DNA of 64,000 nt from Lachnospiraceae bacterium (GTDB lineage: Bacteria > Bacillota > Clostridia > Lachnospirales > Lachnospiraceae). A model generated the notes under the pieces. The model had not been told where the DNA came from, made no database searches, and saw only the letters and a list, made by a program, of their open reading frames with translations. This document shows, one piece after another, positions 299-30,996 of the stretch (positions are counted from its first letter, which is position 1; every line of letters begins with the position of its first letter). The stretch covers positions 1 to 64,000 of the forward strand of contig JAFRSU010000078.1 of assembly GCA_017427415.1 (NCBI GenBank). Reading direction: 5' to 3'. The translations under genes and the position numbers were made by a program.

Positions 299-2017
299 AT
301 GAAAAAAGAGAAAACCTTATTTCAGCAGTTATGCGGACAGTTTTTCTACCGCAATAAGCTGACTTTCGGCCTGGCAGCTTTTTCGGCCTTGTTTTCGGGC
401 TTTGGGGGACTGATAATATCCTGGCTTCTAAAGCAATTGATCGATACTGCTTCCGGGGTACCGGATGCGAAGTCATTCGAGACGGACTTGATTTTGTTCG
501 GAGGGTTCATCGTGCTGATGGCGATATCGTTCATTCTTGATTATACAACGCGTCCGGCTTCTATCAGAAGGGCAATGACGCAGTATAAGAACTTGGCGTT
601 TGATAAGCTGATGGATAAGGGTATTTCCACTTTCCGTGATGAAAGTACCGCGACTTATCTCTCGGCACTTACCAACGATGCGACAAGTATAGAGACAAAT
701 TATCTTTCTCAGCTGCTTTCGCTTTTTACCATGTCGGTAATGTTTTTCGGATCGGTTACGCTTATGATCTGGTATTCACCGCTGCTTACGGCGATAGCTG
801 TAGGCGTTACGATCCTGCCGCTTATTGCTTCTATAATTACCGGCAAAAGAATGGTGGGTGCGGAGAAAAAGGTATCCGATCAGAACAAGAACTTTACAGC
901 GGTACTGACTGACTGCTTGAGCGGATTTTCCGTTATTAAAAGCTTTAAAGCCGAAAAGGAGATCTTTAAGATGTTTGCCGCTGAGAACAAGGCACTTGAG
1001 ATTTCCAAGTTCTCAAAAGAACGTATCAAGACCATAGTCGGGATGATAGGATCCATGGCAGGCATGCTTGCCCAGTCGGGTGTGTTTGTCGCCGGAACAT
1101 ACCTTATACTTTCAGGGTATGACCTGACTACGGGTACCGTTATGATGTTCGTGAATCTGATGAATTTTATGATCCAGCCCATGGCTGCCCTGCCCGGACT
1201 GCTTGCGGGAAGGAAGGCTGCCAGAGGTCTTATACAAAAACTTTCCGATGCATTATCACAGAATAACGAATCGACCGGTACCGAGGAGATTGCCGCCGTA
1301 AACAAGAAAATAGTTCTCGAGAATGTAAGCTTCGGTTATGACGATGAGAAAGAGATACTTCACGGCATTTCCGCTACATTTGATGCAGGGAAGGCTTATG
1401 CGGTGGTAGGGGCGAGCGGAAGCGGAAAGTCCACATTACTTAATCTGTTAATGGCTTCAACTGCAAACTATAAAGGAAATATCCTTGTGGACGGTAAGAA
1501 TCTTAAAAATATCAAAGCAGAGGCTCTGTATGAATGTATTTCCGTGATCCAGCAGAATGTATTTGTTTTCAATTCATCCATAAGGGATAACGTGACCATG
1601 TTCAGGGATTTTCCTAAGACTGAACTTGATGAGGCTATAGAGCATGCTCATCTTGATGAGCTTATAAAAAGAAGAGGAGAGGATACGCTGTGCGGTGAGA
1701 ACGGATGCGGGCTTTCGGGAGGAGAGAAACAGAGGATCTCGATCGCAAGAAGCCTGCTTAAAAAATCATCCGTACTGCTCGCGGATGAAGCGACAGCAGC
1801 TCTCGATGCTAAGACAGCGTGGCAGGTATCAAATGATATTCTCGACTTAAAAGGCATCACCCGTATCGTAGTTACGCATTCGTTAGAGGAAGGGCTGCTT
1901 AAGAGATATGACGGGATACTTGTATTAAAGGAAGGAAAAGTGGAAGAATTCGGAACGTTTGATGAACTGATGGATGCCAACGGATACTTCCATGCATTAT
2001 ATACAGTATCACAGTAA
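299..2017 (+). CDS. ABC exporter, fused membrane and ATP-binding domains
   Basis: A 572-residue half-size ABC exporter (type IV fold, MsbA/LmrA class) in the cytoplasmic membrane. The N-terminal part has six hydrophobic segments (residues about 20-300). The C-terminal ATPase has Walker A GASGSGKST, signature LSGGEKQR and Walker B VLLADEATAALD, so it should hydrolyse ATP. It must act as a homodimer or pair with another half-transporter; the exporter at 3199-4920 is on the opposite strand, so pairing is not shown. The start ATG has GGAGG 8 bases upstream, inside a hairpin. Substrate cannot be told from sequence; regulated peptide or drug exporters have this build. Confidence 0.9.
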   Translation: MKKEKTLFQQLCGQFFYRNKLTFGLAAFSALFSGFGGLIISWLLKQLIDTASGVPDAKSFETDLILFGGFIVLMAISFILDYTTRPASIRRAMTQYKNLAFDKLMDKGISTFRDESTATYLSALTNDATSIETNYLSQLLSLFTMSVMFFGSVTLMIWYSPLLTAIAVGVTILPLIASIITGKRMVGAEKKVSDQNKNFTAVLTDCLSGFSVIKSFKAEKEIFKMFAAENKALEISKFSKERIKTIVGMIGSMAGMLAQSGVFVAGTYLILSGYDLTTGTVMMFVNLMNFMIQPMAALPGLLAGRKAARGLIQKLSDALSQNNESTGTEEIAAVNKKIVLENVSFGYDDEKEILHGISATFDAGKAYAVVGASGSGKSTLLNLLMASTANYKGNILVDGKNLKNIKAEALYECISVIQQNVFVFNSSIRDNVTMFRDFPKTELDEAIEHAHLDELIKRRGEDTLCGENGCGLSGGEKQRISIARSLLKKSSVLLADEATAALDAKTAWQVSNDILDLKGITRIVVTHSLEEGLLKRYDGILVLKEGKVEEFGTFDELMDANGYFHALYTVSQ

Positions 2018-2030
2018 ATTTTTACAGACA

Positions 2031-2060
2031 TATAGGCTTCCCCTCAAGGGGAAGGCTATA
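2031..2060. repeat. Palindromic CTTCCCC/GGGGAAG hairpin element
   Basis: CTTCCCC (2037-2043), loop TCAA and GGGGAAG (2048-2054) form a hairpin, extended by TATAG/CTATA after a G-G mismatch. No T-run follows, so it is a poor terminator. Closely related palindromes lie at 37302-37321 and, as a half copy, at 53931-53946. It separates the exporter from the XRE gene and is probably a dispersed repeat. Confidence 0.6.
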
Positions 2061-2076
2061 TATAGGAGGAGACCAT

Positions 2077-3153
2077 ATGGAGATCACATTATCAGACAAC
2101 ATACGTAAGTTCAGGAAAGAGCGCCGTCTTACCCAGGAACAGCTGGCAGAGGTTATGGGAGTTACCACGGGGGCGGTTCATAAATGGGAATCAGGCCTGT
2201 CGGTACCTGATATCAGTCTGATAGTGGAATTGGCGGATTTCTTTGATACTTCGGTGGATGTGCTGCTTGGTTATAAGATGAAGGACAATAATATCAAGTC
2301 CACTATTGACAGAATAGATGAGATGTGCCGGAATTCGGATCCGGAGGCGATAAACGAAGCGGAAAAACTGCTTATGAAATATCCGAATTCATTTAAAGTG
2401 GTACATCACTGTGCGGGGGTATACAGTTTCTTCGGTGTCGGAAAAGGGAAAGAGAAGGAATGTAAAAGAGCTTTGGAATTATATGAACAGGCAAGGATAC
2501 TTATAGATCAAAACACAAATCCCCGGATAAGCGAAGCGACTATCCTGGGAAATATGTCAATGGTATATATTCTTACGGGAGAATATGACAGGGCAGTCAA
2601 GATATTGGAAGAGCATAATCCGAAAGGTATATTCAGTGATAATATCGGGCTGATAAAGGCATTGTATCTTAAAAAAACTAAAGAAGCCGCACCTTTTCTT
2701 GTGGATGGAATGCTTAACGGATTTGATACGCTGCTTAACTCAATGCTTGGTTATACGGCTGTATTGTGCTCGGAAAATAAATTTTTGGTAGCAAACAAAA
2801 TGCTTAATCTGGGCTTAGATCTGATGAAAGGAGTTTTGATTGAGGACGAAAAAGTCAGTTTTGCGGATAAAGAGTATGCGTATACATATATACTTCTTGC
2901 TTATACTTATTTAAAGACGGGGGACAGAGACAAGACCATAGACATGATAGAAAAAACTGTTTATCATGTAAATAGATTTGACTCTGCCCCGAAATATAAT
3001 ATCGGTAAGTTTATATTTGATATCCCGGAGGATTGGTCCATGGTATTTCGCGATATCCTCGGCGACAGCGCAAAGGAAAGTATAGATATGCTGTTGAAAT
3101 TCATAGACGATACCGAAATAACCGAGCTATGGGATCGCTATTATAAACAATGA
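2077..3153 (+). CDS. XRE-family transcriptional regulator with TPR-like C-terminus
   Basis: A 358-residue protein. Residues 5-65 are a Cro/C1-type helix-turn-helix (LTQEQLAEVMGVTTGAVHKWE, followed by the usual LADFFDTSVDVLLGY). The remaining ~290 residues are helical and look like tetratricopeptide-type repeats, as in regulators that bind peptides or sense partner proteins. GGAGGAG lies 7 bases before the ATG. It is co-oriented with and 59 bases downstream of the ABC exporter at 299-2017, so it could be that exporter's regulator or be co-transcribed with it. No ligand can be inferred. Confidence 0.85.
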   Translation: MEITLSDNIRKFRKERRLTQEQLAEVMGVTTGAVHKWESGLSVPDISLIVELADFFDTSVDVLLGYKMKDNNIKSTIDRIDEMCRNSDPEAINEAEKLLMKYPNSFKVVHHCAGVYSFFGVGKGKEKECKRALELYEQARILIDQNTNPRISEATILGNMSMVYILTGEYDRAVKILEEHNPKGIFSDNIGLIKALYLKKTKEAAPFLVDGMLNGFDTLLNSMLGYTAVLCSENKFLVANKMLNLGLDLMKGVLIEDEKVSFADKEYAYTYILLAYTYLKTGDRDKTIDMIEKTVYHVNRFDSAPKYNIGKFIFDIPEDWSMVFRDILGDSAKESIDMLLKFIDDTEITELWDRYYKQ

Positions 3154-3198
3154 TAGTCTTAGCAGCAGCCTTTTTATTTTATATATCGGGCAAAAAAC

Positions 3199-4920
3199 TC
3201 AACCTGCCTGCTGCATCCTGTAATAGAAGCCCTTTTGCGCCATAAGCTCGTCATGTGTACCCTGTTCGACGATCTCACCTTCATGGATGACAAGTATGAG
3301 ATCCGCATTCATGATGGTTGAGAGACGGTGTGCTATGGCTATGATAGTGCGTTTTCCGGTCAGTTCGTTAATAGCTGCCTGGATCTGACGCTCGGTCTGC
3401 ACATCCACGGAGGCAGTAGCCTCATCAAGGATGATGATGGGACTGTTACGCAAAATGGCTCTGGCGATGGCAACTCTCTGCTTCTGACCGCCGGATAAAC
3501 GGAGACCGCGTTCGCCGACCTGTGTCTCGTATCCGTCCGGCATGGCGAGGATATCCTCGTGTATATTGGCTGCTTTGGCAGCTTTTTCTATTTCTGTGCG
3601 GCTTGCGTCTGGCCTGGCATATCCGATATTTTCCGCTATGGAGCCGTTAAACAGGAAAGTATCCTGCAGTACGGGGGATATGTTGTGACGCAGGCTTTCT
3701 AAAGTGACCTTCTTTATATCATGTCCGTCTATAAGTATGCGGCCTTCAACCGGGTCATAAAAACGGGATATCAGCTGAGTGGCTGTGGTCTTTCCGACAC
3801 CTGTGGGACCTACTAAAGCTACCATCATACCGGGTTTACAGGAGAATGAAATATTCTTTAGTACCGGGATTTTATTCTCATAATTAAAGGATACATTCTC
3901 AAAGCTTAAGGCGCCCTTTACGTCTTTTAATTCCTCGGCATCCTTTTCGTTTTGGATGGCAGAAGGAGTGGCAAGGATCATGGTAACACGTTCTGCTCCG
4001 GCCAATGACTGCTGGAGATTTTCAAGCAGGTTGGCAAGTCCGGATACAGGTGCATAGAATAGTGAAAGGTAGAGCAGAAATGCCACTATGTCAGCTATGC
4101 TTATCTGTCCGCTGTAAGCAAGATAACCGCCGTAAAACACAACGATGACAGTACCTATGGAAGAGAGAAGTTCCACACAGGGATGAAATATCGCACTGGC
4201 TTTTAATGCACGGAGCATTGCGACTACCTGCTCAAAGCTTTTCTTGCGTACACGTTCTCCTTCGTATGCTTCCTGACCGAATGCCTGTATCTCATGAAGA
4301 CCCGAGAGACTGTCCTGAAGCTGGGCATTTAAGTCGCCCATAACCTTCTGCGAAGCTCTAAAGTATGGACGTACTATCTTAGCAAATATAACACCTGATA
4401 TGAGTATCAGCGGGATGGGGCAGCAGGTGACCAAAGCCAGTTTCCAGTTGATTGAAAGAAGTATTATAAGAACGCCTAAGAAAGTCACAAAGTTGGTGAT
4501 CAGTTCCGGGATCATATGTGCATAAAGGAGCTCGAAGTCACGCGTATCATTTACCACTCGGCTCATGAGATCTCCGGTCTGCTTATCATGGAAAAATCCG
4601 AGGTCGAGACTCTGAAGTTTGTTGTACAGACGGCTTCTTAAATCGCCTACGAGGTACCATGCAGCCCTGTGAGCAAGGTAATTGCTTAAAAATCTGAACA
4701 AAACTCTTAAAAGATACAATCCGAGTAATAAAAGTGCCAGCCATTTTACGGAAGTAAGACCTTCATCATCCAGACCGTTTTCTACCAGGGCCGTCATCGA
4801 TGAGAGTACCTTAGGCGCAGACAGATTGATCACCGTCAAACTTAATGTGGACAATATCGCGATGATATAAAGCCCTTTATACCGGGCGGCTTCCTTTGTA
4901 AGTTCCCAGAGAGTTTTCAT
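3199..4920 (-). CDS. ABC exporter, fused membrane and ATP-binding domains
   Basis: A 573-residue half-size ABC exporter of the MsbA/multidrug class. Six membrane segments span about residues 15-310. The ATPase has Walker A GPTGVGKTT, signature LSGGQKQR and Walker B IIILDEATASVD followed by H-loop AHRLST. The frame opens 24 bases earlier at TTG 4944, but ATG at 4920 has AAAGGAG 8 bases upstream on its own strand and starts the typical N-terminus MKTLWELTKEA, so it was chosen. The gene converges on the XRE gene with only 45 bases between stops. Substrate unknown; lipid or drug export is usual in the family. Confidence 0.9.
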   Translation of the reverse strand: MKTLWELTKEAARYKGLYIIAILSTLSLTVINLSAPKVLSSMTALVENGLDDEGLTSVKWLALLLLGLYLLRVLFRFLSNYLAHRAAWYLVGDLRSRLYNKLQSLDLGFFHDKQTGDLMSRVVNDTRDFELLYAHMIPELITNFVTFLGVLIILLSINWKLALVTCCPIPLILISGVIFAKIVRPYFRASQKVMGDLNAQLQDSLSGLHEIQAFGQEAYEGERVRKKSFEQVVAMLRALKASAIFHPCVELLSSIGTVIVVFYGGYLAYSGQISIADIVAFLLYLSLFYAPVSGLANLLENLQQSLAGAERVTMILATPSAIQNEKDAEELKDVKGALSFENVSFNYENKIPVLKNISFSCKPGMMVALVGPTGVGKTTATQLISRFYDPVEGRILIDGHDIKKVTLESLRHNISPVLQDTFLFNGSIAENIGYARPDASRTEIEKAAKAANIHEDILAMPDGYETQVGERGLRLSGGQKQRVAIARAILRNSPIIILDEATASVDVQTERQIQAAINELTGKRTIIAIAHRLSTIMNADLILVIHEGEIVEQGTHDELMAQKGFYYRMQQAG

Positions 4921-6934: not shown

Positions 6935-6971
6935 GGAAAAAAAACATCCGAAGCCTGTAAAAGGCTCCGGA
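6935..6971 (-). terminator. Rho-independent terminator of the Fe-S/EAL gene
   Basis: On the minus strand TCCGGAGCCT, loop TTTAC and AGGCTTCGGA (6947-6971) form a stem with one G-U pair, followed by a run of eight T. It is correctly placed ~50 bases beyond the stop of the minus-strand gene ending at 7020. Confidence 0.8.
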
Positions 6972-7019
6972 CATTTTTAATGAAAGGCGGTATAACAAAC
7001 AATTTTACGGCCTGAAAGA

Positions 7020-9611
7020 TCAGGCACTGAACTGGTAGTAGTCGGGTATCTCGAGACGCTTTTCGAAATCCGCTACCGGGATGGGCCGGTCGAAATAGTA
7101 GCCCTGGATAAGGTCGCAGGAAAGGTTCTTTAAGAGTTCAAGTTCTTCCTTACGCTCTACGCCCTCGGCCACAACCTTCATGTTAAGCTTCTTTGCCATC
7201 GTGATGACACTGTCTACGACATTCTTAACCTTGATATCCTCGATACCGGAATCAAGGAAGGCCTTGTCAAGCTTCAATACCTGGAAGTCAAGCTGTGAAA
7301 GCAGGTTCAGGGATGAATAGCCTGCGCCGAAATCATCGATGGAGGTGGAGAAGCCCTTGATATTTAATTCCTTAAGTACGGACTTAAGTCTTTCCTTTGT
7401 TTTCTCATAAGCACTTTCGGTTATTTCGATTTCTATGAGATTGTGCGGGAGGTTGTATCTGTCAACCATCTGCTCGATCTCTTTGACGAAATCGGAATTC
7501 TTAAAGTGCAGTTTGGAGAAGTTGACACTTATGCAAACAGGAGAAAGTCCTGTATCAAGCCATCTCCTTATATCCCTGCATACATGCTCGAGTACATAAA
7601 AATCGAGCTGGCAGATTATGCCGTTCTTCTCGAAAAGAGGGATAAATCTGGCAGGGGAGATCAGTTCCTTTTTGGATTTCCAGCGTACTAATGCTTCAGC
7701 ACCCTTCATGACCTGTGAGGCAGTATTGATCTTCGGCTGGTAGTATACCAGGAATTCTTCGTTTTCCATAGCCTCGGGGAAGGACTTGGTGAGCTGTATG
7801 GAATCGATCAGCTGCTCCTTCATGCTCTGGTCATAATATACTATCTTGGCGCCGCCGACTTTTGCATTGTCCGCTGCGATATTGGTCCTGCCGACCACGG
7901 TTTCCGCAGCACGCTCATACTCGTTCATCATATATATGCCGGCGGTGATGGATACGGGATATTCGACATCCTGAAGACCGTCATTGGGGTGTACAACTAC
8001 GGATTGGATGGATTTTAAGAAGCTGTTAAGGTTCTTTTTCCTGATAACCGCCAAAAAATCAACTCCGCCGTGGTGTGCCACAAGTTCATCGGAGTTTGCG
8101 AGCTTTTCTACAATCTTCGCAAATTCGATGATGGATTTGTCGCCCTCTGCATAGGTAAAACGCTCGTTTAACAGCTCCCAGCCCTGAAGTGAGAAGGAGA
8201 TAACGGCATAGTCGCCTCCGTTTTCGCTCTTGATGGTCTCACTTAGCTTGGAGTTGAAATAACTGACATTCGGGATACCTGTCATGATATCCGTAAGGTA
8301 AAGCCTGCGGTTTTCCTCTTTTTCGTAGTAAACGCAGTTTTCTATCCTGTTATAACCCAGAGCCACGGCCTCGACCAGTTCCCTGCAGGTACTGTATCCG
8401 CAGGAACCGCAGTCGATACAGCGGTCCTGAGAGGTGTGCTTGTACATCTGTGTGTATATATCTTCGATATCGCTGGGTTCAACTATCTGTTTGTAGATGA
8501 AATGACCTTTGAAGGTCCTTGAAAAATCAGCCGGATCAAGATCCTTAAAGAGCTCGTAAAGAGCCTCCTTTTTCTCGGAATAAGATGAGGCCCTGGAGTA
8601 AAGCTTAGGATTTTGTGCCTTGGCTGCCAGCTCAAGCTGTAAATAGCCCTGCGATATCTCAACCAGATTTCTTACGCCCTGTCCTATGCCCGGGCTGTCA
8701 ACACAGCTGTGCTCGCATGTGGAAACATTGGTAGCGTAAGGAATGGTTGTGCTGTTAAAAACACTGTTCTCATAGTATTCATAAAAAGGCAGATGATAGA
8801 TTGCGTTGTCTACCGAGAGGATGAACTTGTCCTCCGGGATAAAATTACCAAGGGTCGCTTTCATCCCGCCTTCGATGGATATGGTACTTCCCAGGGTAAT
8901 ATTTCTGCCCTTAAATTCATTGTTGTATTCATCCAGGTCAATGCCTGCCATGGCCTGAGCCAGATATTTATAAGTGATATTATAAGAAATCTCGCCGTTT
9001 GTCTCAGGAGAATCAAACTCCAGCTTCTTAGCGATGCAGGGACCTATATATGCCAGCTTATCCGTATTTTTCAGATACTTGTGGATATAAATGGCGGTAC
9101 ATACCGCAGGGGACTGCACCGGGATGAGCTTCTCGAGCATATCCCTTGAATACTTTTCCACAAAGTTGATGAAGGAAGGACAGGTCTGAAGGATAACTCC
9201 GCCCTCCGGATGCTCATCAAAATACTTTAAATAACACCATATAGATATGTCTGTACCGAGTCCGGCATCATATACGGCGGAAATTCCGTTGGCAAGTAAA
9301 AAATTGATGACTTTTCCTGCGATATTGGGGTATAATACAAATATGGAGGGATCCAGGATGACGGAAATCTTCTCGGTTCCGAGATCACTTATAAAACGCT
9401 TTGTGTCGTCACGAAATTCCCTGGCGTTATGACGGCACTCCCTTATACAGTTGCCGCAGGATATACACTTGTTGGTATCTACCACTATGATATTTTTCCC
9501 GGCCCTGGATACCGATTTGTTTGCACCGGGGACAGGACATGACATAATACACCGGTTGCAGCCGATGCAGTTGTCATTTGTATATATGATTCCGTTTTGA
9601 CCCTGTTCCAT
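7020..9611 (-). CDS. [FeFe]-hydrogenase-like iron-sulfur protein fused to GGDEF and EAL domains
   Basis: An 863-residue fusion. It begins with two 4Fe-4S ferredoxin motifs (Cys 15/18/21/25 and 49/52/55/59). A domain like the C-terminal half of [FeFe] hydrogenase follows: QTCPSF around Cys144 and GPCIAKKLEF around Cys192 resemble the first two H-cluster motifs, and Cys299/303 may be the degenerate third. Then comes a CxxCxxCxxxxC cluster motif (Cys398/401/404/409). The GGDEF domain (435-600) is degenerate, reading HHGGVDF. The EAL domain (615-855) keeps EAL639-641, Asn697, Glu732, DDFG759-762 and EGVE, so c-di-GMP hydrolysis is likely. I infer a cytoplasmic redox- or hydrogen-responsive c-di-GMP phosphodiesterase. 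Single gene with its own terminator. Confidence 0.88.
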   Translation of the reverse strand: MEQGQNGIIYTNDNCIGCNRCIMSCPVPGANKSVSRAGKNIIVVDTNKCISCGNCIRECRHNAREFRDDTKRFISDLGTEKISVILDPSIFVLYPNIAGKVINFLLANGISAVYDAGLGTDISIWCYLKYFDEHPEGGVILQTCPSFINFVEKYSRDMLEKLIPVQSPAVCTAIYIHKYLKNTDKLAYIGPCIAKKLEFDSPETNGEISYNITYKYLAQAMAGIDLDEYNNEFKGRNITLGSTISIEGGMKATLGNFIPEDKFILSVDNAIYHLPFYEYYENSVFNSTTIPYATNVSTCEHSCVDSPGIGQGVRNLVEISQGYLQLELAAKAQNPKLYSRASSYSEKKEALYELFKDLDPADFSRTFKGHFIYKQIVEPSDIEDIYTQMYKHTSQDRCIDCGSCGYSTCRELVEAVALGYNRIENCVYYEKEENRRLYLTDIMTGIPNVSYFNSKLSETIKSENGGDYAVISFSLQGWELLNERFTYAEGDKSIIEFAKIVEKLANSDELVAHHGGVDFLAVIRKKNLNSFLKSIQSVVVHPNDGLQDVEYPVSITAGIYMMNEYERAAETVVGRTNIAADNAKVGGAKIVYYDQSMKEQLIDSIQLTKSFPEAMENEEFLVYYQPKINTASQVMKGAEALVRWKSKKELISPARFIPLFEKNGIICQLDFYVLEHVCRDIRRWLDTGLSPVCISVNFSKLHFKNSDFVKEIEQMVDRYNLPHNLIEIEITESAYEKTKERLKSVLKELNIKGFSTSIDDFGAGYSSLNLLSQLDFQVLKLDKAFLDSGIEDIKVKNVVDSVITMAKKLNMKVVAEGVERKEELELLKNLSCDLIQGYYFDRPIPVADFEKRLEIPDYYQFSA

Positions 9612-24600: not shown

Positions 24601-25332
24601 TCAGCCATAATTGAGGGCAGCGTTAATGATCCTACATTTTTCGTCTTGAGGTCTGCGGTCTTTATGATAGTACTGTTCTGTGGTATGACGATCTGTATGT
24701 CCAACCTGGTCAAGTATAAGACGGTCATCGACATGAGCGTCCAATAATTTGGAACAGACTGTCTTACGAGCTTTATGAAGTCTTCTGGGTACAATTTTAA
24801 GCTGGTGGCAGATGCTGTTCAGTTTATCACTGAAGACTCTTCCCTGTATTCTGCATCCATCGTTGTTGGTAAAGATGAATTCATTATCACCAAAGTCCTT
24901 ATAGAGTGCTTTGAGAGCTAATGAAGCCTCCGTGGGAAGAGTTATCGTCCTTAAGCCTTCTTTTGTCTTAGTATGAGGTACTACTTCAAAATGTCGTTTC
25001 CCTTCGTGGTCTTTATAGGTTATTTCAGAACTTTGTATTTTGATAGTTCTAAAGTCTTCGGATACGTCCCTCCATCTAAGAGCTGCGAGTTCTCCACACC
25101 TCAAGCCTGCATAGAACGCTAACAGTATACCCACATTAACCATGGAGAACTTATGTTGCTTTATGAAGGTAAAGATGGAAACAACTTCTTTGTCTGTAAA
25201 GACCTGTTCTTCATTCTTTTCTTCTTGCTGTTCAAGTGCCTTGTTGCTTATGGATAGAACTTTGAGGAATTCTGTTATATAAAGTTCTGTTTGTTTCGTT
25301 TTCTTACCATAGAGCCAAATACCGCTTATCAA
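24601..25332 (-). pseudogene. Tyrosine integrase, N-terminally truncated
   Basis: 243 residues of a phage/ICE-type integrase. The catalytic residues are present: Arg78 (YAGLRCGE), Lys124 region (TKTKEG), His186-x2-Arg189 (RLHKAR), His212 (VGHTD) and Tyr221/222 (QYYHKD). Full-length relatives have ~380-400 residues with arm-binding and core-binding N-terminal domains, which are missing. The reading frame continues upstream about 18 codons (KLNRKGWLKLKA) to a TGA without any ATG or ribosome site, and the TTG start at 25332 is not credible. I conclude that the 5' third was deleted. It points toward the tRNA, normal for such elements. Confidence 0.8.
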
Positions 25333-25627
25333 GGCTTTTAACTTCAGCCATCCCTTACGATTGAGCTTTCTTAATTGTAAATAATAAAATCCTTTTCAAT
25401 TCATAGACAAAATGATATACTAATTATATTGTAATTCTGAAGAATGCTAGAAATACACTAGAAAACTATATTATTATGCGTAAACAATATTGTGCAATAG
25501 AAAAAATGGCAAATCTAAAACAAAAAAGCAGGAAATATTTCAGAAAAGATGTTAAAAACAGCGAAAAATAAAGAGATGACAAAAGTGTCGCCAGTGGTGA
25601 CACGATTATAAAAGAGGTAATAAATCT
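25333..25627. other. Intergenic region with 19-bp palindrome before DUF1016 gene
   Basis: AT-rich sequence left after loss of the integrase 5' end. The notable feature is GTGTCGCCAGTGGTGACAC at 25585-25603, a near-perfect palindrome 24 bases before the DUF1016 start, matched by GTGTCACCATTGGTGACAC inside that gene (25904-25922). AAAGAGG serves as its ribosome site. Confidence 0.6.
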
Positions 25628-26632
25628 ATGAACGAAATTGATAAAAGCTTTAAGACGGTAGTTACGATTATAGAAAACGCGCGTGAGAACGCTTACCGAA
25701 AAGTAAATGAAGAACTGATACTTATGTATTGGAATGTAGGTCACTTCCTTTCAGAGCAATCGAAAGAAGCTAAGTATGGTGACGGATATATTGATGCTCT
25801 TGTCTCTTTCATACAGGATCAGTTTCCGGGAATAAAAGGTTTCAATCGCCGTGGCTTGTACAGAATGAAGCAGTTTTTTGAGCTTTATACTGGAAATGAA
25901 AAAGTGTCACCATTGGTGACACAATTAAGCTGGACGAATCATCTGCTAATTATGTCTGGCTGTAAGTCTGATGAAGAACGTGAATTCTATATGCAACTGG
26001 CAATTAAGGAACGATACAGCAAGCGCGAATTGGAGCGTCAGATGGACAGTGGATATTATGAACGGTATATGCTTTCTAAAGAAAAGCTTCTTCCGGAGAC
26101 GATAAAGGCCGAGCTGAATCCATTCCTGGACTCATATGTGATTGAGTTTCTGGATCTTCCGCCGAAGTTCAAGGAAAAGCACCTGAAAAAAGGGCTTATC
26201 GAGGGAATGAAGAAATTTATCCTAGAGCTTGGCAAGGACTTTACTTATGTCGATGAAGAATATACTATCATGGTCGGTGGGGAGGATTATCATGTGGATC
26301 TTTTGTTTTATCACAGGACATTGCGCTGCCTTGTAGCGCTGGAACTGAAGACCGGAAAGTTCAAGCCGGAATACATATCCAAGATGGACTTCTATCTGGA
26401 AGGACTCGACCGACAAGTGAAGAAGCCGGATGAAAACCCGAGTGTAGGTCTGATTTTATGCGCTTCAAAGAATGATGAAGTAGTGGAATATGCCATGAGC
26501 AGGACAATGTCGCCTATGATGGTGTCACAATACCAGCTACAATTACCGGATAAAGAGGTGCTACGGAGAAAACTTCAGGAATTGGCAAATATACCGATGC
26601 TTGAAGATAACGAAGGAGGAAAAAACGAATGA
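25628..26632 (+). CDS. DUF1016 / YhcG-type PD-(D/E)xK nuclease family protein
   Basis: 334 residues. The N-terminal half (about 10-150) is DUF1016_N with the conserved VTQLSWTNHLLIM. The C-terminal half (165-320) is a PD-(D/E)xK nuclease fold: Asp224 (YHVDLLFYH), Glu239-x-Lys241 (ALELKTGKF) and a following helix. Relatives sit in restriction-modification and defence islands, often next to hsd genes; the exact activity is not settled. Here the stop overlaps (ATGA) the start of a truncated type III methylase, so it was once part of that operon. It is the only intact gene of the left element. Confidence 0.85.
   Translation: MNEIDKSFKTVVTIIENARENAYRKVNEELILMYWNVGHFLSEQSKEAKYGDGYIDALVSFIQDQFPGIKGFNRRGLYRMKQFFELYTGNEKVSPLVTQLSWTNHLLIMSGCKSDEEREFYMQLAIKERYSKRELERQMDSGYYERYMLSKEKLLPETIKAELNPFLDSYVIEFLDLPPKFKEKHLKKGLIEGMKKFILELGKDFTYVDEEYTIMVGGEDYHVDLLFYHRTLRCLVALELKTGKFKPEYISKMDFYLEGLDRQVKKPDENPSVGLILCASKNDEVVEYAMSRTMSPMMVSQYQLQLPDKEVLRRKLQELANIPMLEDNEGGKNE
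25904..25922. repeat. Intragenic 19-bp perfect palindrome
   Basis: GTGTCACCATTGGTGACAC within the DUF1016 gene, coding VSPLVT. With flanks it aligns to the upstream copy at 25585-25603 over 27 bases with four differences (AAAGTGTC...GACACxATTA). Confidence 0.6.
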
Positions 26633-26751
26633 GCAACCTGTTTGAAACAGTCAAAGAAATCCTAGAAAAGGATAAGCGTTTCCTCTCCACAGATGAAATC
26701 ATTATGAGGAATGCAGTAATTGTAAGAATTGGTGTCAGATATACTGTATAA
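26629..26751 (+). pseudogene. N-terminal stub of type III DNA methyltransferase (mod)
   Basis: Starts in ATGA overlap with the DUF1016 gene behind AAGGAGG. It encodes MSNLFETVKEILEKDKRFL...MRNAV, which resembles the first 30 residues of type III restriction-modification Mod subunits (LFEAVKEILKKDKRF...LRNAVYEAA), then diverges and stops after 40 codons. A whole Mod has ~600 residues, so nearly all of it is gone. The junction abuts the minus-strand gene at 26735. Confidence 0.65.
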
Positions 26752-26914
26752 ATCTGTCGCGTTCCTCCTTGGAGAGCTTTCCTATCGTAACCCCTTTGCT
26801 TCTGGCTAATTGTAATGCACCTCTCATGTCGAGTATGGCTTTGGGGACGATGGGTTCTTCCATTTTTGAAAGGTTCTTAAGATAATTCTCATATTTCGTC
26901 GTCTGACCATTCAT
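26735..26914 (-). CDS. Small conserved-looking protein, unknown
   Basis: 59 residues (MNGQTTKYENYLKNLSKMEE... to DRFIQYI), all helix by appearance, no Cys or membrane segment. ATG 26914 has AAAGGAG 7 bases upstream; two earlier ATGs fit that site less well. It follows and overlaps the end of the deleted gene at 26889-27159. I recall similar short proteins beside small two- or three-gene toxin-antitoxin-like loci in Lachnospiraceae but cannot name a family. Possibly functional, possibly a leftover. Confidence 0.5.
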   Translation of the reverse strand: MNGQTTKYENYLKNLSKMEEPIVPKAILDMRGALQLARSKGVTIGKLSKEERDRFIQYI

Positions 26915-27159
26915 AATCATACTCCTTTCTGATGTTTCTGGCTGCTTCATCGAAAAAGCCAATCTGGTATTCATGAAGCATACGCATTTCTTCAGCTCCA
27001 AATCTTGTTATAAAATGCTGCATTATTTCTTCGGAACGGCAGAACCCGGTAACATCACCATTATATCCGAGCTGTTCAGATCTTTCAATGGCAATAGCGA
27101 GAAGATGTCAAGTTATCAATTAGACATGGTACCAATTCATCTATATCAACGCATATCAT
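26889..27159 (-). pseudogene. Internally deleted gene of unknown family
   Basis: Behind GGAGGGA a good start at 27159 encodes MICVDIDELVPCLIDN and then runs into a stop (TGA near 27085). In another frame the sequence continues as LLAIAIERSEQLGYNGDV...FGAEEMRMLHEYQIGFFDEAARNIRKEYDYEW to 26889. Both halves resemble the two ends of a ~170-residue protein common in Firmicutes, so about 100 middle codons were lost with a frame change. Family recognition is from memory only. Confidence 0.55.
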
Positions 27160-27269
27160 ATATCTATCCCTCCAATTCTATTATACACCTTTTTGACGAT
27201 TTTAACAAGGTCTTTACAAAGGAAATGTTTCTATGTATTGTCTATGTTGTGATTATGATGTTATAAAGC

Positions 27270-27300
27270 TTGCGACACTTATATTGAAAATGTGCGACAC
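27270..27300. repeat. Candidate arm-type integrase sites, middle
   Basis: TTGCGACAC (27270-27278) and GTGCGACAC (27292-27300), 42-72 bases left of the internal att copy. Confidence 0.6.
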
Positions 27301-27341
27301 TATATTCGGGAAGCCCATATTTTAAGCGACCCGAGGCTTAC

Positions 27342-27372
27342 ATGTGAGGGTTCAAGTCCCTTACTCCGCATT
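27342..27372. repeat. Internal att copy (31 bp of tRNA-Leu 3' end)
   Basis: ATGTGAGGGTTCAAGTCCCT and the following ...TACTCCGCATT match 24423-24453 and 35043-35073 exactly; the ten preceding bases differ. It marks the boundary between two tandem elements or the site of an earlier insertion. Confidence 0.85.
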
Positions 27373-27428
27373 TACTCTAAAACCATCATGAAATATGTTA
27401 ACGGAATTGTCCTAATGTAAAATTTATA

Positions 27429-27457
27429 TTGACATATTGCCATCGGTGGTATATATT
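27429..27457 (+). promoter_or_regulatory. Promoter of riboswitch 1 transcript
   Basis: TTGACA (27429-27434), 17-bp spacer, TATATT (27452-27457). Transcription would begin near 27464, about 15 bases before the aptamer. Confidence 0.75.
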
Positions 27458-27477
27458 ATTTCATAAGGTACAAATTG

Positions 27478-27570
27478 ATTTTGGCAAACTATCTGAAAAG
27501 ATAGGACTGCAAAGCTATAGGGACTAAAGGATTACAAGGATGTTATCACATGTCAGCCAGTTGCAATATA
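27478..27570 (+). ncRNA. Cyclic-di-GMP-I (GEMM) riboswitch, copy 1
   Basis: The aptamer core of the GEMM class is recognisable: TTGGCAAAC, hairpin CTATC-TGAAAA-GATAG containing the GAAA-type loop, GACTGCAAAGCTATAGGGACTAA in two pieces (GGACTGCAAAGC and AGGGACTAAAG), and ATGTCAGCCAGTTGC at the 3' side. Terminator 27582-27616 follows as expression platform. Whether the ligand turns the gene on or off cannot be read. Distinguishing c-di-GMP from c-GAMP (GEMM-Ib) needs a covariance alignment. Controls the gene at 27724. Confidence 0.85.
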
Positions 27571-27581
27571 GTGTGATTAGA

Positions 27582-27616
27582 TAGCATCGTAATTCCTTAG
27601 ATACGGTGCTTTTTTG
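27582..27616 (+). terminator. Riboswitch 1 expression-platform terminator
   Basis: GCATCGTA (27584-27591) pairs with TACGGTGC (27602-27609), followed by TTTTTTG, 12 bases behind the aptamer. Confidence 0.85.
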
Positions 27617-27723
27617 TTTTGCTTTTGAATGGATTTAAACTAGGGTCAAGAGAGAACTCGATAATGAACTAGTGTGATATCTGCAAAACCTACAAATATA
27701 TTATAGAAAGGATGTTATAAGTC

Positions 27724-28347
27724 ATGAAAATTAAGCAATTTAGTTGCCCTAATTGTGACAGCCAATTAGATCCCAACATGATTGAGGATAACACCTCGAT
27801 TTATTGCCCATATTGTGGTTATTATTTTACAGTTGAAAATGAAAACCATACTCAAACAATTAATAAAAATATTAATAAAACGGTTACTATTAATAAAAAT
27901 ATTCACAATCAAATTACAAATGATGCAGAGGTAATAAGGGCAAATACTGAAAGAAAGAAACATAGCAGCGGTAATGCGTGGGCAGTTTTCTGGATCATAG
28001 TAGTTATAGGGCTTGTTGTATTTGGAGTTGTAAAGTTAAAAGAATATGACGCAGACCAAAAAGCAAGAATGGCGGAACAGGAAGAAGCTATAGAAAAGGC
28101 AGAACGAGCAGGAAAAATACAAGTCCAATATGATTCCTACACTTTTAAGGATGAAAACTACAAGACTGTAAAAGCTAAATTGGAAGATGCCGGATTTACT
28201 AATATTGAAACTGTAGATTTAGAAGATTCTGGTTTAGCATTTTGGAATTACGGGAATGTGGAGTTTGTTTCAATTGATGGCAAGAAAAACTTTTCTTCGG
28301 ATAATTATTATATGCCTGATGTTAAGATAGTTATCTACCATCATTGA
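27724..28347 (+). CDS. Zinc-ribbon membrane protein with PASTA-like C-terminal domain
   Basis: 207 residues. A zinc ribbon starts the protein (Cys8, Cys11, Cys28, Cys31: CPNCDS...CPYCGYYF). An Asn/Ile/Thr-rich stretch with repeated INKNI follows, then one membrane helix (WAVFWIIVVIGLVVFGVV, about 93-110) and a charged helix. The last ~65 residues resemble a PASTA-type fold (YKTVKAKLEDAGFTNIETVDL) and would be outside, with the ribbon inside. AGAAAGGA lies 11 bases before the ATG. Expression is under the c-di-GMP riboswitch 108 bases upstream. Function unknown; a sensor is plausible. Confidence 0.75.
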   Translation: MKIKQFSCPNCDSQLDPNMIEDNTSIYCPYCGYYFTVENENHTQTINKNINKTVTINKNIHNQITNDAEVIRANTERKKHSSGNAWAVFWIIVVIGLVVFGVVKLKEYDADQKARMAEQEEAIEKAERAGKIQVQYDSYTFKDENYKTVKAKLEDAGFTNIETVDLEDSGLAFWNYGNVEFVSIDGKKNFSSDNYYMPDVKIVIYHH

Positions 28348-28374
28348 TTTAATTTACGAGAGAGTGGAAAGATA

Positions 28375-29064
28375 ATGTTTTGTATAAAATGTGGAAATGA
28401 AATACCTGGAGATTATGTTTTTTGCCCCAAATGTGGTACTCCGACAATAAATAACAAGAATAGGAACCACTCTGAAACGAATCATGCGGTTGAAGAACAG
28501 CCGGGTATAAGGCAAAGGCCAAATAAAAAGGAATACATTTCGATAATGAATAATAAGTCTATAAAGAAGATATTAATACTTGTTATAGGCTTAATAATTA
28601 TTGGAGTTTTTTTCTCGCTGATTAAAGAAAACCCTAAAACAAAAAAAATACTCAATTATGTTAATGGAAGTTCAAAAAAGGAATTTGCCAATATTGAAAG
28701 TAAAATGATTGAAAGTTTTAATAGTTTTTGGGGGGACAATAGTAAAACTGATCAGGACGTTTATGATGAAATATCTCAAAAAACTATTGTATATGCAAAA
28801 CAATTAAATACAATAGCAAATGATATGTTACGCGAAATAGACGATGAAGAATTACGAAATGTACATAAAATCCTGATTGACTATAGTGATGCGTTTGTAC
28901 AGATCTGTACAAAAATGCTCTATGGGATAGATAACAATGACTTGAGCGTAATTGATGAAATAAAAGAGTTAAAGAAAAAAACCAGTAGACTAGCAGATGA
29001 ATATTGGTCGGAACTTACAGCTTTAGGCAAGAAGAACGGGGTTAGCATAAAAAAAGTCGATTAA
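28375..29064 (+). CDS. Zinc-ribbon membrane protein with helical C-terminus
   Basis: 229 residues. Zinc ribbon at residues 3-22 (CIKCGNEIPGDYVFCPKCGT), a polar linker, one membrane helix (IKKILILVIGLIIIGVFFSLI, about 63-83), and an external helical domain of ~140 residues rich in Glu, Lys, Asn and Asp. It lies 27 bases after the previous gene and shares its layout (ribbon inside, helix, outside domain), so they are probably co-transcribed and may act together. Family unknown. Codon use is strongly AT-biased as elsewhere in the island. Confidence 0.7.
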   Translation: MFCIKCGNEIPGDYVFCPKCGTPTINNKNRNHSETNHAVEEQPGIRQRPNKKEYISIMNNKSIKKILILVIGLIIIGVFFSLIKENPKTKKILNYVNGSSKKEFANIESKMIESFNSFWGDNSKTDQDVYDEISQKTIVYAKQLNTIANDMLREIDDEELRNVHKILIDYSDAFVQICTKMLYGIDNNDLSVIDEIKELKKKTSRLADEYWSELTALGKKNGVSIKKVD

Positions 29065-29111
29065 CTATTAGAGATATAAGGGAGATACCATTCAGGTATT
29101 ATCATATAAAT

Positions 29112-29206
29112 AATTTGGCAAAGCATCTGAAAAGGTGTGTCTGCAAAGCTAGAGGGACTAAGGGATTACAGGGATGTTATCACATGTCAGCCAGTTGCAA
29201 AATAGT
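29112..29206 (+). ncRNA. Cyclic-di-GMP-I (GEMM) riboswitch, copy 2
   Basis: A near-duplicate of copy 1: TTTGGCAAAG, CATC-TGAAAA-GGTG hairpin, TCTGCAAAGCTAGAGGGACT, the identical ATGTTATCACATGTCAGCCA and GTTGCAA. The two copies share the 3' half almost base for base, while the P2 stem keeps pairing with different bases. No clear promoter lies in the 48 bases before it, so it may act within the transcript of the upstream genes. It controls the gene at 29269 and those after it. Confidence 0.85.
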
Positions 29207-29217
29207 GTGAACAAATA

Positions 29218-29249
29218 GCATCCTAACTTTTGGTTAGGATGTTTTTGAT
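29218..29249 (+). terminator. Riboswitch 2 expression-platform terminator
   Basis: GCATCCTAAC (29218-29227), loop TTTTG, GTTAGGATGT (29233-29242), then TTTTGATTTT. Stronger stem than in copy 1. Confidence 0.85.
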
Positions 29250-29268
29250 TTTGTGAGGAGGGATATTA

Positions 29269-29499
29269 TTGATTCCAGGTTATATAACAACAAAAGAAGC
29301 ATCAGAGCGTTGGGGAATAAGCATACGGTATGTAAATGTACTGTGTCATAACGGGAAAATTCCGTTGGCACAGAAGCTTGGAACGATATGGGCTATACCG
29401 GAGGATACTGAGAAGCCAACGCAGGACAGAAGAATAAAGTCAGGAGAATATAAGAACTGGCGTAAAAGACATAACAATAAGAGGGGAGAATTAGCATGA
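29269..29499 (+). CDS. Small helix-turn-helix DNA-binding protein (excisionase/MerR-like)
   Basis: 76 residues. YITTKEASERWGISIRYVNVLCHNGKIP followed by GTIWAIPED is the winged-helix pattern of excisionase/MerR-like proteins (helix, turn, recognition helix, then the wing). The tail is basic. The start is TTG at 29269, with GAGGAGG at 29255-29261 well spaced. It is the first gene behind the second riboswitch. In an integrative element such a protein could be an excision factor, or a regulator of the following genes. Confidence 0.75.
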   Translation: MIPGYITTKEASERWGISIRYVNVLCHNGKIPLAQKLGTIWAIPEDTEKPTQDRRIKSGEYKNWRKRHNNKRGELA

Positions 29500-29613
29500 G
29501 TAGCATGTTTTTACGCTTTTGAATCATAGGAAGCTGGTTTTGTTATTTTGCTGGTAAAGAATAATAGTTAAACAAACTGTAATATGTTGCAAATATAAAA
29601 GGAGGAACTAGGT

Positions 29614-30996
29614 ATGAATAATCTTAACTTAACTAATATGAAGAAACGATTGGAAAAAACTTCACGTAGATCACCAATTAAAGATTATGGTTTTGATGAC
29701 TTAGAAGACTTTTATGAAAATGGGATACATATAAAACAGGATTATGAGGATATAGATGATTTTGAAGCTATTGTTATGTACATAGGGTATTCTGTGGCAG
29801 ATAGATTAAGGTTGGATTATGAAGAGTATATACACTGGGCAAAGGCGCAAGAGAGTTTTATTAGCGCATGCCTCTTTAAATTGATTGATGAGAAAAATCC
29901 TGATATTACTCTGGAAGAATACAAATTAATAGATGAAACTAAAACTCATGATAGTTATAATAGAGCGGTCAAAAAGATAGCTTCATTTAGAAGATGTATA
30001 GAAATAAGTGATACAAATGTCGAAAATTCTATTCCTGCTTTGGGAAAGTATTATATTATTAATGATCAAATTAAGAACCTAGGCACTATATTAAAGGAAC
30101 AAAAAAAGTATATTAAAGAATTTTGGAACACATTTTTGCAACAATATAAAACCCTTATAAATAAAAAAGATAGAAATATTTTTAAATCAAAAATCTCTGA
30201 TATAGTTGATTGTGAGCTACATGCGTATTGGAGTAAATCAAAAAGACTATTAAAAAAATATAATATCAAAGATAAATCAATAGAGTATATTAAAAATACC
30301 TTTTTTAATAATATTCAAACGGAGTATATTATTGATGGTATAGAGGATGCTTATGACGAATTAGAAGATAGTTATTCTGACGGAATAGACCAAATTGGCG
30401 ATTATTATGAAAACAAAGCTAACTCAATAGAATTTTTGGGAATTGGTAAAGGTTTAAAAGGGATTGCTCAAATAATAGGAGCGAATGTTTTTAATAGTGT
30501 TAAAGACTCCTATTATCTTCATCGAGCACTTGGAAAAGGAAGAAAACTACAAAATGATTTTGATGATTTAGTTAGTGAAATTTATTTTGGTATAGAAACT
30601 CAAAAGTTATATGAGAAATTTTTCTATACGGATTTAGTGAGTATTATCACACCGTATTGTTTATTTATTATTGATGGAGGAATAGAAAACCAATTAATAG
30701 TTGAGTCTCAGTATTTAGAGGGAATGGAACAAATTGGTAGTTTGACGGAAGATGAGAAAAATGATTTGTTTGTTAAACTTCTTCAGGTGTTTCCATTTTC
30801 GCCATACATTTACGTTTTCATATATGAAAACAATAGGGGTTATTATGACGATTTAATAAGATTAAATGATGCTTTAGGAAATGACAAGTTATTCTTCGAC
30901 AATCAAAATAATACAGAATGTAATACATTTGAAATCTACATTAAAACTCTTACAAATGATGATTTGTTGTATTCTTCAAAAAAGAAGAACGAGTAA
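29614..30996 (+). CDS. Unknown helical protein; first half of a probable frameshift fusion
   Basis: 460 residues, mostly helical, acidic, no match recognised. Residues ~270-305 (FLGIGKGLKGIAQIIGANVFNSV) form a Gly-rich amphipathic or membrane-touching segment between two long helices. AGGAGG precedes the ATG. Near the end it reads TC-A-AAA-AAG, and from there the -1 frame stays open without a stop through the whole next ORF. A -1 shift would give a single protein of ~1373 residues. Alone it ends SSKKKNE 4 codons later. It may instead be a gene broken by loss of one A. Confidence 0.65.
   Translation: MNNLNLTNMKKRLEKTSRRSPIKDYGFDDLEDFYENGIHIKQDYEDIDDFEAIVMYIGYSVADRLRLDYEEYIHWAKAQESFISACLFKLIDEKNPDITLEEYKLIDETKTHDSYNRAVKKIASFRRCIEISDTNVENSIPALGKYYIINDQIKNLGTILKEQKKYIKEFWNTFLQQYKTLINKKDRNIFKSKISDIVDCELHAYWSKSKRLLKKYNIKDKSIEYIKNTFFNNIQTEYIIDGIEDAYDELEDSYSDGIDQIGDYYENKANSIEFLGIGKGLKGIAQIIGANVFNSVKDSYYLHRALGKGRKLQNDFDDLVSEIYFGIETQKLYEKFFYTDLVSIITPYCLFIIDGGIENQLIVESQYLEGMEQIGSLTEDEKNDLFVKLLQVFPFSPYIYVFIYENNRGYYDDLIRLNDALGNDKLFFDNQNNTECNTFEIYIKTLTNDDLLYSSKKKNE
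30978..30984 (+). other. A AAA AAG slippery heptamer joining two ORFs
   Basis: In the frame of the upstream gene the codons read TCA AAA AAG AAG AAC GAG TAA. A -1 slip on A-AAA-AAG (30978-30984) continues as GAA GAA CGA GTA AAA and stays open to 33734. No ATG, GTG or TTG with a ribosome site begins the downstream frame. No strong Shine-Dalgarno stimulator or downstream hairpin is obvious, so transcriptional slippage, phase variation in A6/A7, mutation or an assembly error remain possible. Confidence 0.6.

Follow-up and report, generated by a model that had tools for sequence, protein, structure and literature searches.

A hydrogenase-like iron-sulfur sensor fused to a predicted c-di-GMP phosphodiesterase recurs in Lachnospiraceae

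The window analyzed here is a stretch of 64,000 nucleotides from a Lachnospiraceae bacterium (GenBank assembly GCA_017427415.1, contig JAFRSU010000078.1). One of its genes joins an iron-sulfur (Fe-S) sensor resembling sensory [FeFe] hydrogenases to a GGDEF domain and an EAL domain, the latter a predicted phosphodiesterase of cyclic di-GMP (c-di-GMP). This hydrogenase-like sensor, with a presumed enzyme as its output in the same chain, is a real and recurrent fusion, and the protein is best explained as a cytosolic c-di-GMP phosphodiesterase gated by redox state or H2, a reading to which we assign a probability of roughly 0.6. An [FeFe]-type H-domain fused to EAL or GGDEF was not described in the open-access literature that we searched; subscription literature lay mostly outside this search.

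Domain organization of the fusion protein

The initial annotation, made from the sequence alone, described a single chain with two ferredoxin clusters, an H-cluster-like domain (H-domain), a further Fe-S cluster, a degenerate GGDEF domain and an EAL domain, and Pfam searches together with motifs confirmed this architecture (Table 1). The ferredoxin ligands are C15, C18, C21 and C25 for one cluster and C49, C52, C55 and C59 for the other, within a Fer4-type Pfam span of residues 9-64. The H-domain was matched by PF02906 (Fe_hyd_lg_C) at residues 97-232 (E 1.4e-20; 74.5 bits against a curated cut-off of 22.1), and the H-domains of relatives cover this profile end to end. PF04060 (FeS) matched residues 400-428 (E 1.4e-8). 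The C-terminal cluster had been annotated as CxxCxxCx4C, but its ligands are better read as Cx2Cx4Cx16C (C401, C404, C409 and C426), with C398 as an additional cysteine. This motif was found in all family members examined except L044, whose row is truncated by a stop, and one report gives it for groups C and D of the [FeFe] hydrogenases (PMC8163306). No PAS domain was matched in the protein by Pfam at E<=1.

When compared with solved structures, the first half of the protein matched [FeFe] hydrogenases only, besides isolated ferredoxin matches, and an alignment to a non-hydrogenase family, which the initial annotation had named as a refutation, did not appear. The second half matched GGDEF-EAL and EAL proteins only, with MorA, MucR and DosP as the best matches. 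DosP was also the top-scoring NCBIfam model, but its score of 253 lies below the curated cut-off, which is 857. Chance similarity was rejected, because the domain E-values are far from chance.

The active-site pocket of the H-domain

The four cubane cysteines, C144, C192, C299 and C303, were placed by aligning solved hydrogenases and the group A6 enzyme of the host genome. All four are kept, and the proposal that the H-domain is altered holds with additions: the loops QTCPSF and GPCIAKK are present as annotated, and the third loop, STCEHSC, can be added to them. T143 sits at the position of the proton-relay cysteine C299 of the hydrogenase CpI, G190 at that of CpI M353 and S297 at that of CpI M497. 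K195 is aligned to a lysine that we take to be CpI K358, a residue of the diiron pocket. The sensory enzyme TmHydS, which binds an H-cluster, has A131, G177 and S267 at the positions of T143, G190 and S297, and pocket positions of this kind are known to vary in sensory [FeFe] enzymes, according to PMC10055695. The H-domain in the window bears pocket substitutions of the kind published for sensory [FeFe] hydrogenases.

In the same alignment, loop L1 of the host A6 hydrogenase (L001) reads TSCSPGW, with a serine aligned to a cubane cysteine. The solved chain u129161 appears to read TSCSPGW as well.

A degenerate GGDEF domain and an intact EAL domain

The EAL domain had been annotated as catalytically intact, and the complete set of residues was found (E639, N697, E729, E732, D759, D760, K780, E816 and Q836), which we presume to have catalytic and metal-binding roles. 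Among 14 GGDEF-EAL fusions, these residues were kept in 13 and lost in L060 (counted with the C-terminal end of L005 out of frame), and a canonical GG[DE]EF was found in none. In the window protein this motif reads GGVDF, as had been noted, and a bifunctional cyclase/phosphodiesterase was rejected for this reason. The intact EAL domains in 13 of the 14 fusions and the non-canonical GGDEF motif in all of them point to an output that is repeatedly phosphodiesterase-like, in which a putatively dead cyclase motif is combined with a live-looking predicted phosphodiesterase.

Because the pocket substitutions resemble those of sensory enzymes and the EAL residues suggest an active enzyme, a direct link of the sensor to c-di-GMP turnover, as first annotated, would be the natural reading. 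The initial interpretation as a whole is partly supported; the part that named H2, beside redox state, as the signal fared less well, about half of the sensor-bearing genomes being without detected HydF.

Distribution and origins of the fusion

A profile of the N-terminal sensor module was run against 397 genomes of the family to which the host belongs, with four candidates scored per genome. The sensor was found in at least 84 of them with matches of at least 168 bits, and a clean gap separated these from the next matches, catalytic hydrogenases or fragments at ~104 bits and below. Outputs were assigned by domain searches of open reading frames above ~700 amino acids among the stronger matches and of the loci that the searches had turned up; L070 (G305, 837 amino acids) stands outside this classification. 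Most members carried the signalling domain of methyl-accepting chemotaxis proteins (MCP), some a kinase and some GGDEF-EAL. At least 10 of the 397 genomes, each with a different genus code, held the GGDEF-EAL type (the host G000, G386, G096, G261, G226, G327, G310, G331, G213 and G269).

A first tree was built from 55 rows (30 MCP, 14 GGDEF-EAL, 8 kinase, 2 with no output and 1 A6 outgroup), L031 being counted as having no output though it carries an MCP domain. The trees omit L044 for its stop and L025 as a copy of the window gene. EAL fusions were basal and paraphyletic in the first tree, and three changes of output were forced. In a wider tree with outgroups from the phylum, from which five of the 14 EAL rows were omitted (the near-copies L005 and L006 and the long branches L060, L064 and L066), eight GGDEF-EAL rows formed one clade (SH-aLRT, an approximate likelihood-ratio test, 97), L059 stood elsewhere amid MCP proteins, and two changes were forced by well-supported branches. 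The safe statement is that the EAL fusion arose two or more times. The EAL output was gained from neighbours that mostly drive chemotaxis.

In a search of the phylum, 232 of 398 genomes matched the sensor profile at E<=1e-30. The 39 loci that were opened comprised 15 MCP proteins, 8 kinases, 6 sigma-54 activators (by Pfam), 1 GGDEF protein, 8 unlabelled ones and 1 without recognized output, and no EAL fusion was among them. Since the same sensor is found on MCP, kinase, sigma-54 activator and intact GGDEF domains, it behaves as an interchangeable input.

The single GGDEF protein, L116 (G445, positions 1411-3246, 612 amino acids), joins the same sensor to a GGDEF domain with intact RWGGDEF; as a candidate diguanylate cyclase with an H-domain, it would have the opposite output. 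Sensor, sigma-54 activator and helix-turn-helix are combined in L125, L128, L136, L138, L139 and L141, four of which also have PAS.

Conservation and selection

Neither the four cubane cysteines nor any of the 12 other Fe-S cysteines, which lie outside the H-domain, varied in five orthologues or in a 26-member family alignment. When the window gene was compared with its 90% identical orthologue L006, the ratio of nonsynonymous to synonymous substitution rates (dN/dS) was 0.035 for the ferredoxin part, 0.052 for the H-domain, 0.02 for the FeS domain, 0.038 for GGDEF and 0.043 for EAL, all below 0.06, and 0.13 for the linker. These ratios indicate purifying selection on the reading frame as a whole. 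Nearly all of residues 427-445, which lead from the cluster domain into GGDEF, were invariant in four full-length orthologues.

The same full-length fusion was present in three other assemblies, at 90, 81 and 69% identity. Congeneric orthologues at 69% identity (L145, L147 and L148) kept all Fe-S cysteines, K195 and the EAL residues; L150 and L152, obtained in the same within-genus search, are EAL proteins too but lack the sensor. In the 41% identical relative L149, the cysteines were kept except C398, and arginine replaces K195. The distant orthologue L008 has serine at the position of G190.

Comparison with known sensory hydrogenases

When compared by published residues, the window protein shares with the group C (M2f) sensor TmHydS of Thermotoga maritima the two N-terminal [4Fe-4S] motifs, the H-domain with four cubane cysteines, the loss of the proton-relay cysteine, small residues at CpI M353 and M497, and the C-terminal Cx2Cx4Cx16C. 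It differs from TmHydS in having no PAS domain and in carrying GGDEF-EAL in the same chain. TamHydS of Thermoanaerobacter mathranii, of group D (M2e), has the same Fe-S layout and likewise no PAS, but its chain has no output domain; M2e proteins are reported to have a conserved Ser/Thr at the M353 position, where the window protein has G190. DosP also combines a sensor with GGDEF and EAL. Its sensor is a haem PAS domain, whereas that of the window protein is an Fe-S H-domain.

Loss of the proton-relay cysteine, seen here as T143, is a group C criterion in PMC10055695 and PMC8163306. Because the Fe-S features of groups C and D are present, while the PAS domain of group C and the Ser/Thr of group D are missing, the window protein is filed under neither. 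The HydDB classes C1 (kinase-linked), C2 (chemotactic) and C3 (phosphatase-linked) likewise tie a hydrogenase-like sensor to a signalling output, and the relatives of the window protein, mostly MCP fusions, resemble the C2 idea. In the HydDB table, c-di-GMP is not among the outputs given for [FeFe] enzymes, and a putative link to a diguanylate cyclase appears for [NiFe] group 2c alone (PMC5037454).

Distribution of maturases in sensor-bearing genomes

The family-wide searches used cut-offs of E<=1e-60 for HydG and E<=1e-50 for HydF, at which very divergent maturases would be missed; the combined test of HydF and sensor was limited to 20 scored candidates per genome, and 46 genomes were searched for HydE at E<=1e-8. 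HydF was found in 41 of the 80 sensor-bearing genomes tested, accompanied by HydG in 34, by a NifD-like gene in five and by neither in two (G031 and G142). Among the 39 genomes without detected HydF, HydG was found in none and HydE only in G106. With about half of the sensor genomes lacking HydF, and nearly all of these lacking HydE, the module is independent of the known maturases.

We compared 25 sensors from maturase-bearing genomes with 25 from HydF-less genomes, G386, G096 and G074 being classed as maturase-bearing on HydG alone. The cubane cysteines were complete in 25 and 24 sensors, respectively, and lysine stood at position 195 in 24 and 22. As the pocket is no more relaxed where HydF is missing, a conserved pocket does not prove that an H-cluster is bound.

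The explanation that HydF-less genomes simply lost their hydrogenases was ruled out, because 31 of the 39 hold another, higher-scoring H-domain protein (17 at >=290 bits and 14 at ~190-236 bits); in the other eight, the search found no second H-domain protein that scored above 150 bits. The argument from missing maturases therefore cuts both ways: either those H-domain proteins also work without a diiron site, or the models fail to cover some maturation routes.

Group-A-like matches of at least 290 bits stood in 17 genomes in which HydF and HydG were not found and HydE was found only in G106 (G331, G305, G059, G299, G262, G136, G177, G107, G261, G155, G106, G036, G406, G369, G042, G193 and G351). 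Either these hydrogenases have an unknown maturation route or the models are too strict.

A nitrogenase-like gene set beside hydE and hydF

A nitrogenase-like set of NifH, NifD and NifK, mostly with a substrate-binding lipoprotein, adjoins hydF and/or hydE, mostly in HydG-less genomes. The host copy carries hydF (L018, G000:C55 50500-61500, 44-6109), and further such loci are L024, L079, L084, L085, L087, L088, L089, L091, L093 and L096. At the nitrogenase-like loci L080-L083, L086, L090, L092, L094 and L095, hydE and hydF were not seen in the stretches read. HydG was above the cut-off in 175 of the 397 family genomes and in three of the 39 that have a NifD-like match at E<=1e-60 (Fisher p 2.9e-7, uncorrected for shared ancestry). 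Instead of HydG, the nitrogenase-like set may supply the carbon monoxide and cyanide (CO/CN) ligands of the H-cluster. A literature search found no paper on such loci beside hydE/hydF.

Genomic context of the gene

The gene has a divergent upstream neighbour and a terminator-like hairpin downstream, and it is probably transcribed alone. At E<=1e-20, nine EAL proteins were counted in the host genome. It also encodes a paralogue in which the same sensor is joined to an MCP signalling domain (L003, G000:C39, positions 481-2433, 651 amino acids) and a short version of the sensor without output (L002).

The two c-di-GMP-I riboswitches of the genes that the initial annotation placed 18 kb away are real. 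They adjoin an integrase-like open reading frame (24601-25332), and zinc-ribbon proteins without a known function are among those encoded by the frames that follow them (27724-28347 and 28375-29064; 29614-30996); another frame within 24601-30996 is presumably DUF1016/nuclease-like. The proposed functional tie of the sensor gene to the riboswitch genes was dropped, as these are zinc-ribbon or unknown frames near the integrase-like one and share no operon with the sensor gene. Given the integrase-like neighbour and the nine EAL proteins of the host, the sensor gene would be coupled to the riboswitch genes only via the shared cellular c-di-GMP pool.

Table 1. Positions in the window of the fusion gene, its encoded domains and motifs, and nearby elements
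Feature	Position	Strand	Basis or remark
Sensor-phosphodiesterase gene, complete, one unbroken open reading frame	7020..9611	minus	863 amino acids; overall dN/dS 0.053
Two N-terminal [4Fe-4S] ferredoxin motifs, residues 11-63	9423..9581	minus	Pfam
H-domain, [FeFe]-hydrogenase type, residues 71-330	8622..9401	minus	PF02906
L1 motif QTCPSF, residues 142-147; cubane ligand C144	9171..9188	minus	Alignment to solved hydrogenases
L2 motif GPCIAKK, residues 190-196; cubane ligand C192	9024..9044	minus	Alignment to solved hydrogenases
L3 motif STCEHSC, residues 297-303; cubane ligands C299, C303	8703..8723	minus	Alignment to solved hydrogenases
C-terminal Fe-S motif, residues 401-426	8334..8411	minus	PF04060 and motif
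Degenerate GGDEF domain, residues 440-587	7851..8294	minus	Pfam E 7.7e-14
GGVDF instead of GG[DE]EF, residues 515-519; cyclase motif lost	8055..8069	minus	Unchanged in L005-L008
EAL domain, residues 610-843	7083..7784	minus	Pfam E 1.3e-66
Terminator-like hairpin, 17 pairs and T run, directly downstream	6940..6978	minus	Consensus match only
c-di-GMP-I riboswitch 1	27473-27568	plus	
c-di-GMP-I riboswitch 2	29107-29202	plus	

Discussion

In the mechanism that we favor, the H-domain and the [4Fe-4S] clusters, once loaded, would shift state with cellular reducing conditions. H2 would be the likeliest specific reductant in this host, because it keeps HydE (585.8 bits), HydF (537 bits, in frame) and a group A6 [FeFe] hydrogenase (HydA, L001, 899 bits); that H2 itself is the signal is a tentative proposal, falling somewhat short of an even bet. 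A conformational shift would then pass through the C-terminal Cx2Cx4Cx16C domain and a short helix, PAS-free, straight into GGDEF, as a change of shape rather than a flow of electrons. The GGDEF domain would serve as a regulatory or dimerization domain, if anything, and the EAL domain would hydrolyze c-di-GMP under this gating.

Several observations weigh against this mechanism, besides the 39 genomes without detected HydF (several of them rated 99-100% complete) and a pocket conserved regardless of HydF. No HydG above the cut-off was found in the host genome, which means that the standard CO/CN ligand route is missing or replaced there. D87 stands where the host HydA has alanine, an odd charge beside the diiron site, and AlphaFold models of residues 1-437 from five orthologues had a mean pLDDT (predicted local distance difference test) of 39 and were unusable. 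According to PMC13104023, the C-terminal cluster of TamHydS was not reduced under H2, which argues against a simple electron relay.

A strict H2 sensor would hold a full H-cluster, and binding or oxidation of H2 would switch the phosphodiesterase, as proposed for HydS of groups C and D. The four cubane cysteines and the K358 equivalent are consistent with this, and so are the HydE, HydF and A6 hydrogenase of the host and the HydF found in all nearby congeners that have an orthologue. G190 and S297 are also the residues of TmHydS at CpI M353 and M497. Set against the HydG missing from the host at our cut-off, and against the 39 of 80 sensor genomes without HydF, 38 of them also without HydE, a strict H2 sensor has in our view a little less than an even chance. 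A longer version, in which the H-cluster is built without HydG by a NifHDK-like complex encoded with HydE/HydF and H2 sets motility or adhesion directly via c-di-GMP in rumen Lachnospiraceae, seems unlikely as a whole.

Alternatively, the H-domain could be a hydrogenase relic that holds [4Fe-4S]H alone and senses redox state or oxygen, oxidation or loss of the cluster altering the phosphodiesterase. Such a sensor would explain why the ligands are unchanged in genomes without HydF, HydG or a close NifD-like gene and nearly all without HydE, and it agrees with the eight HydF-less genomes that show no second H-domain protein. It is harder to reconcile with the 31 genomes whose higher-scoring H-domain proteins, 17 of them at >=290 bits, also stand without known maturases, and with a diiron-pocket lysine kept in 22 of 25 sensors. 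We consider it possible and lean away from it, and we leave the remaining, smaller share of probability to other inputs.

A receptor of c-di-GMP or GTP like LapD and FimX, which would signal through protein contact instead of being a regulated enzyme, would suit the degenerate GGDEF of all 14 fusions and L060, which also lost its EAL residues. We regard it as improbable: no EAL residue is missing from the window protein or from 13 of the 14, the nearest solved chains are MorA, MucR and DosP, and the FimX type scored far lower. An assembly or gene-calling artefact that joined two genes, conceivable in a draft genome of 98 contigs, is refuted for practical purposes by the orthologous fusions in three assemblies, the recurrence of this layout in nine more genera and the strong purifying selection that spans the junction.

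Sensory [FeFe] hydrogenases are known mainly with PAS domains or with no output, and the message they pass to the cell is hard to measure. A predicted enzymatic output in one chain would make the HydS signal measurable as c-di-GMP breakdown. The family also sets a constraint, as a sensor with unchanged ligands survives in many genomes without known H-cluster maturases, and this implies either a diiron-free function or an undescribed maturation. In the rumen, H2 is the chief currency between fermenters and methanogens. Group C sensory hydrogenases are abundant in rumen studies, and H2 sensing has been proposed for them (PMC6776011). If the gated phosphodiesterase that we favor ties H2 or redox state to motility and attachment, it would bear on the H2 exchange between rumen fermenters and methanogens.

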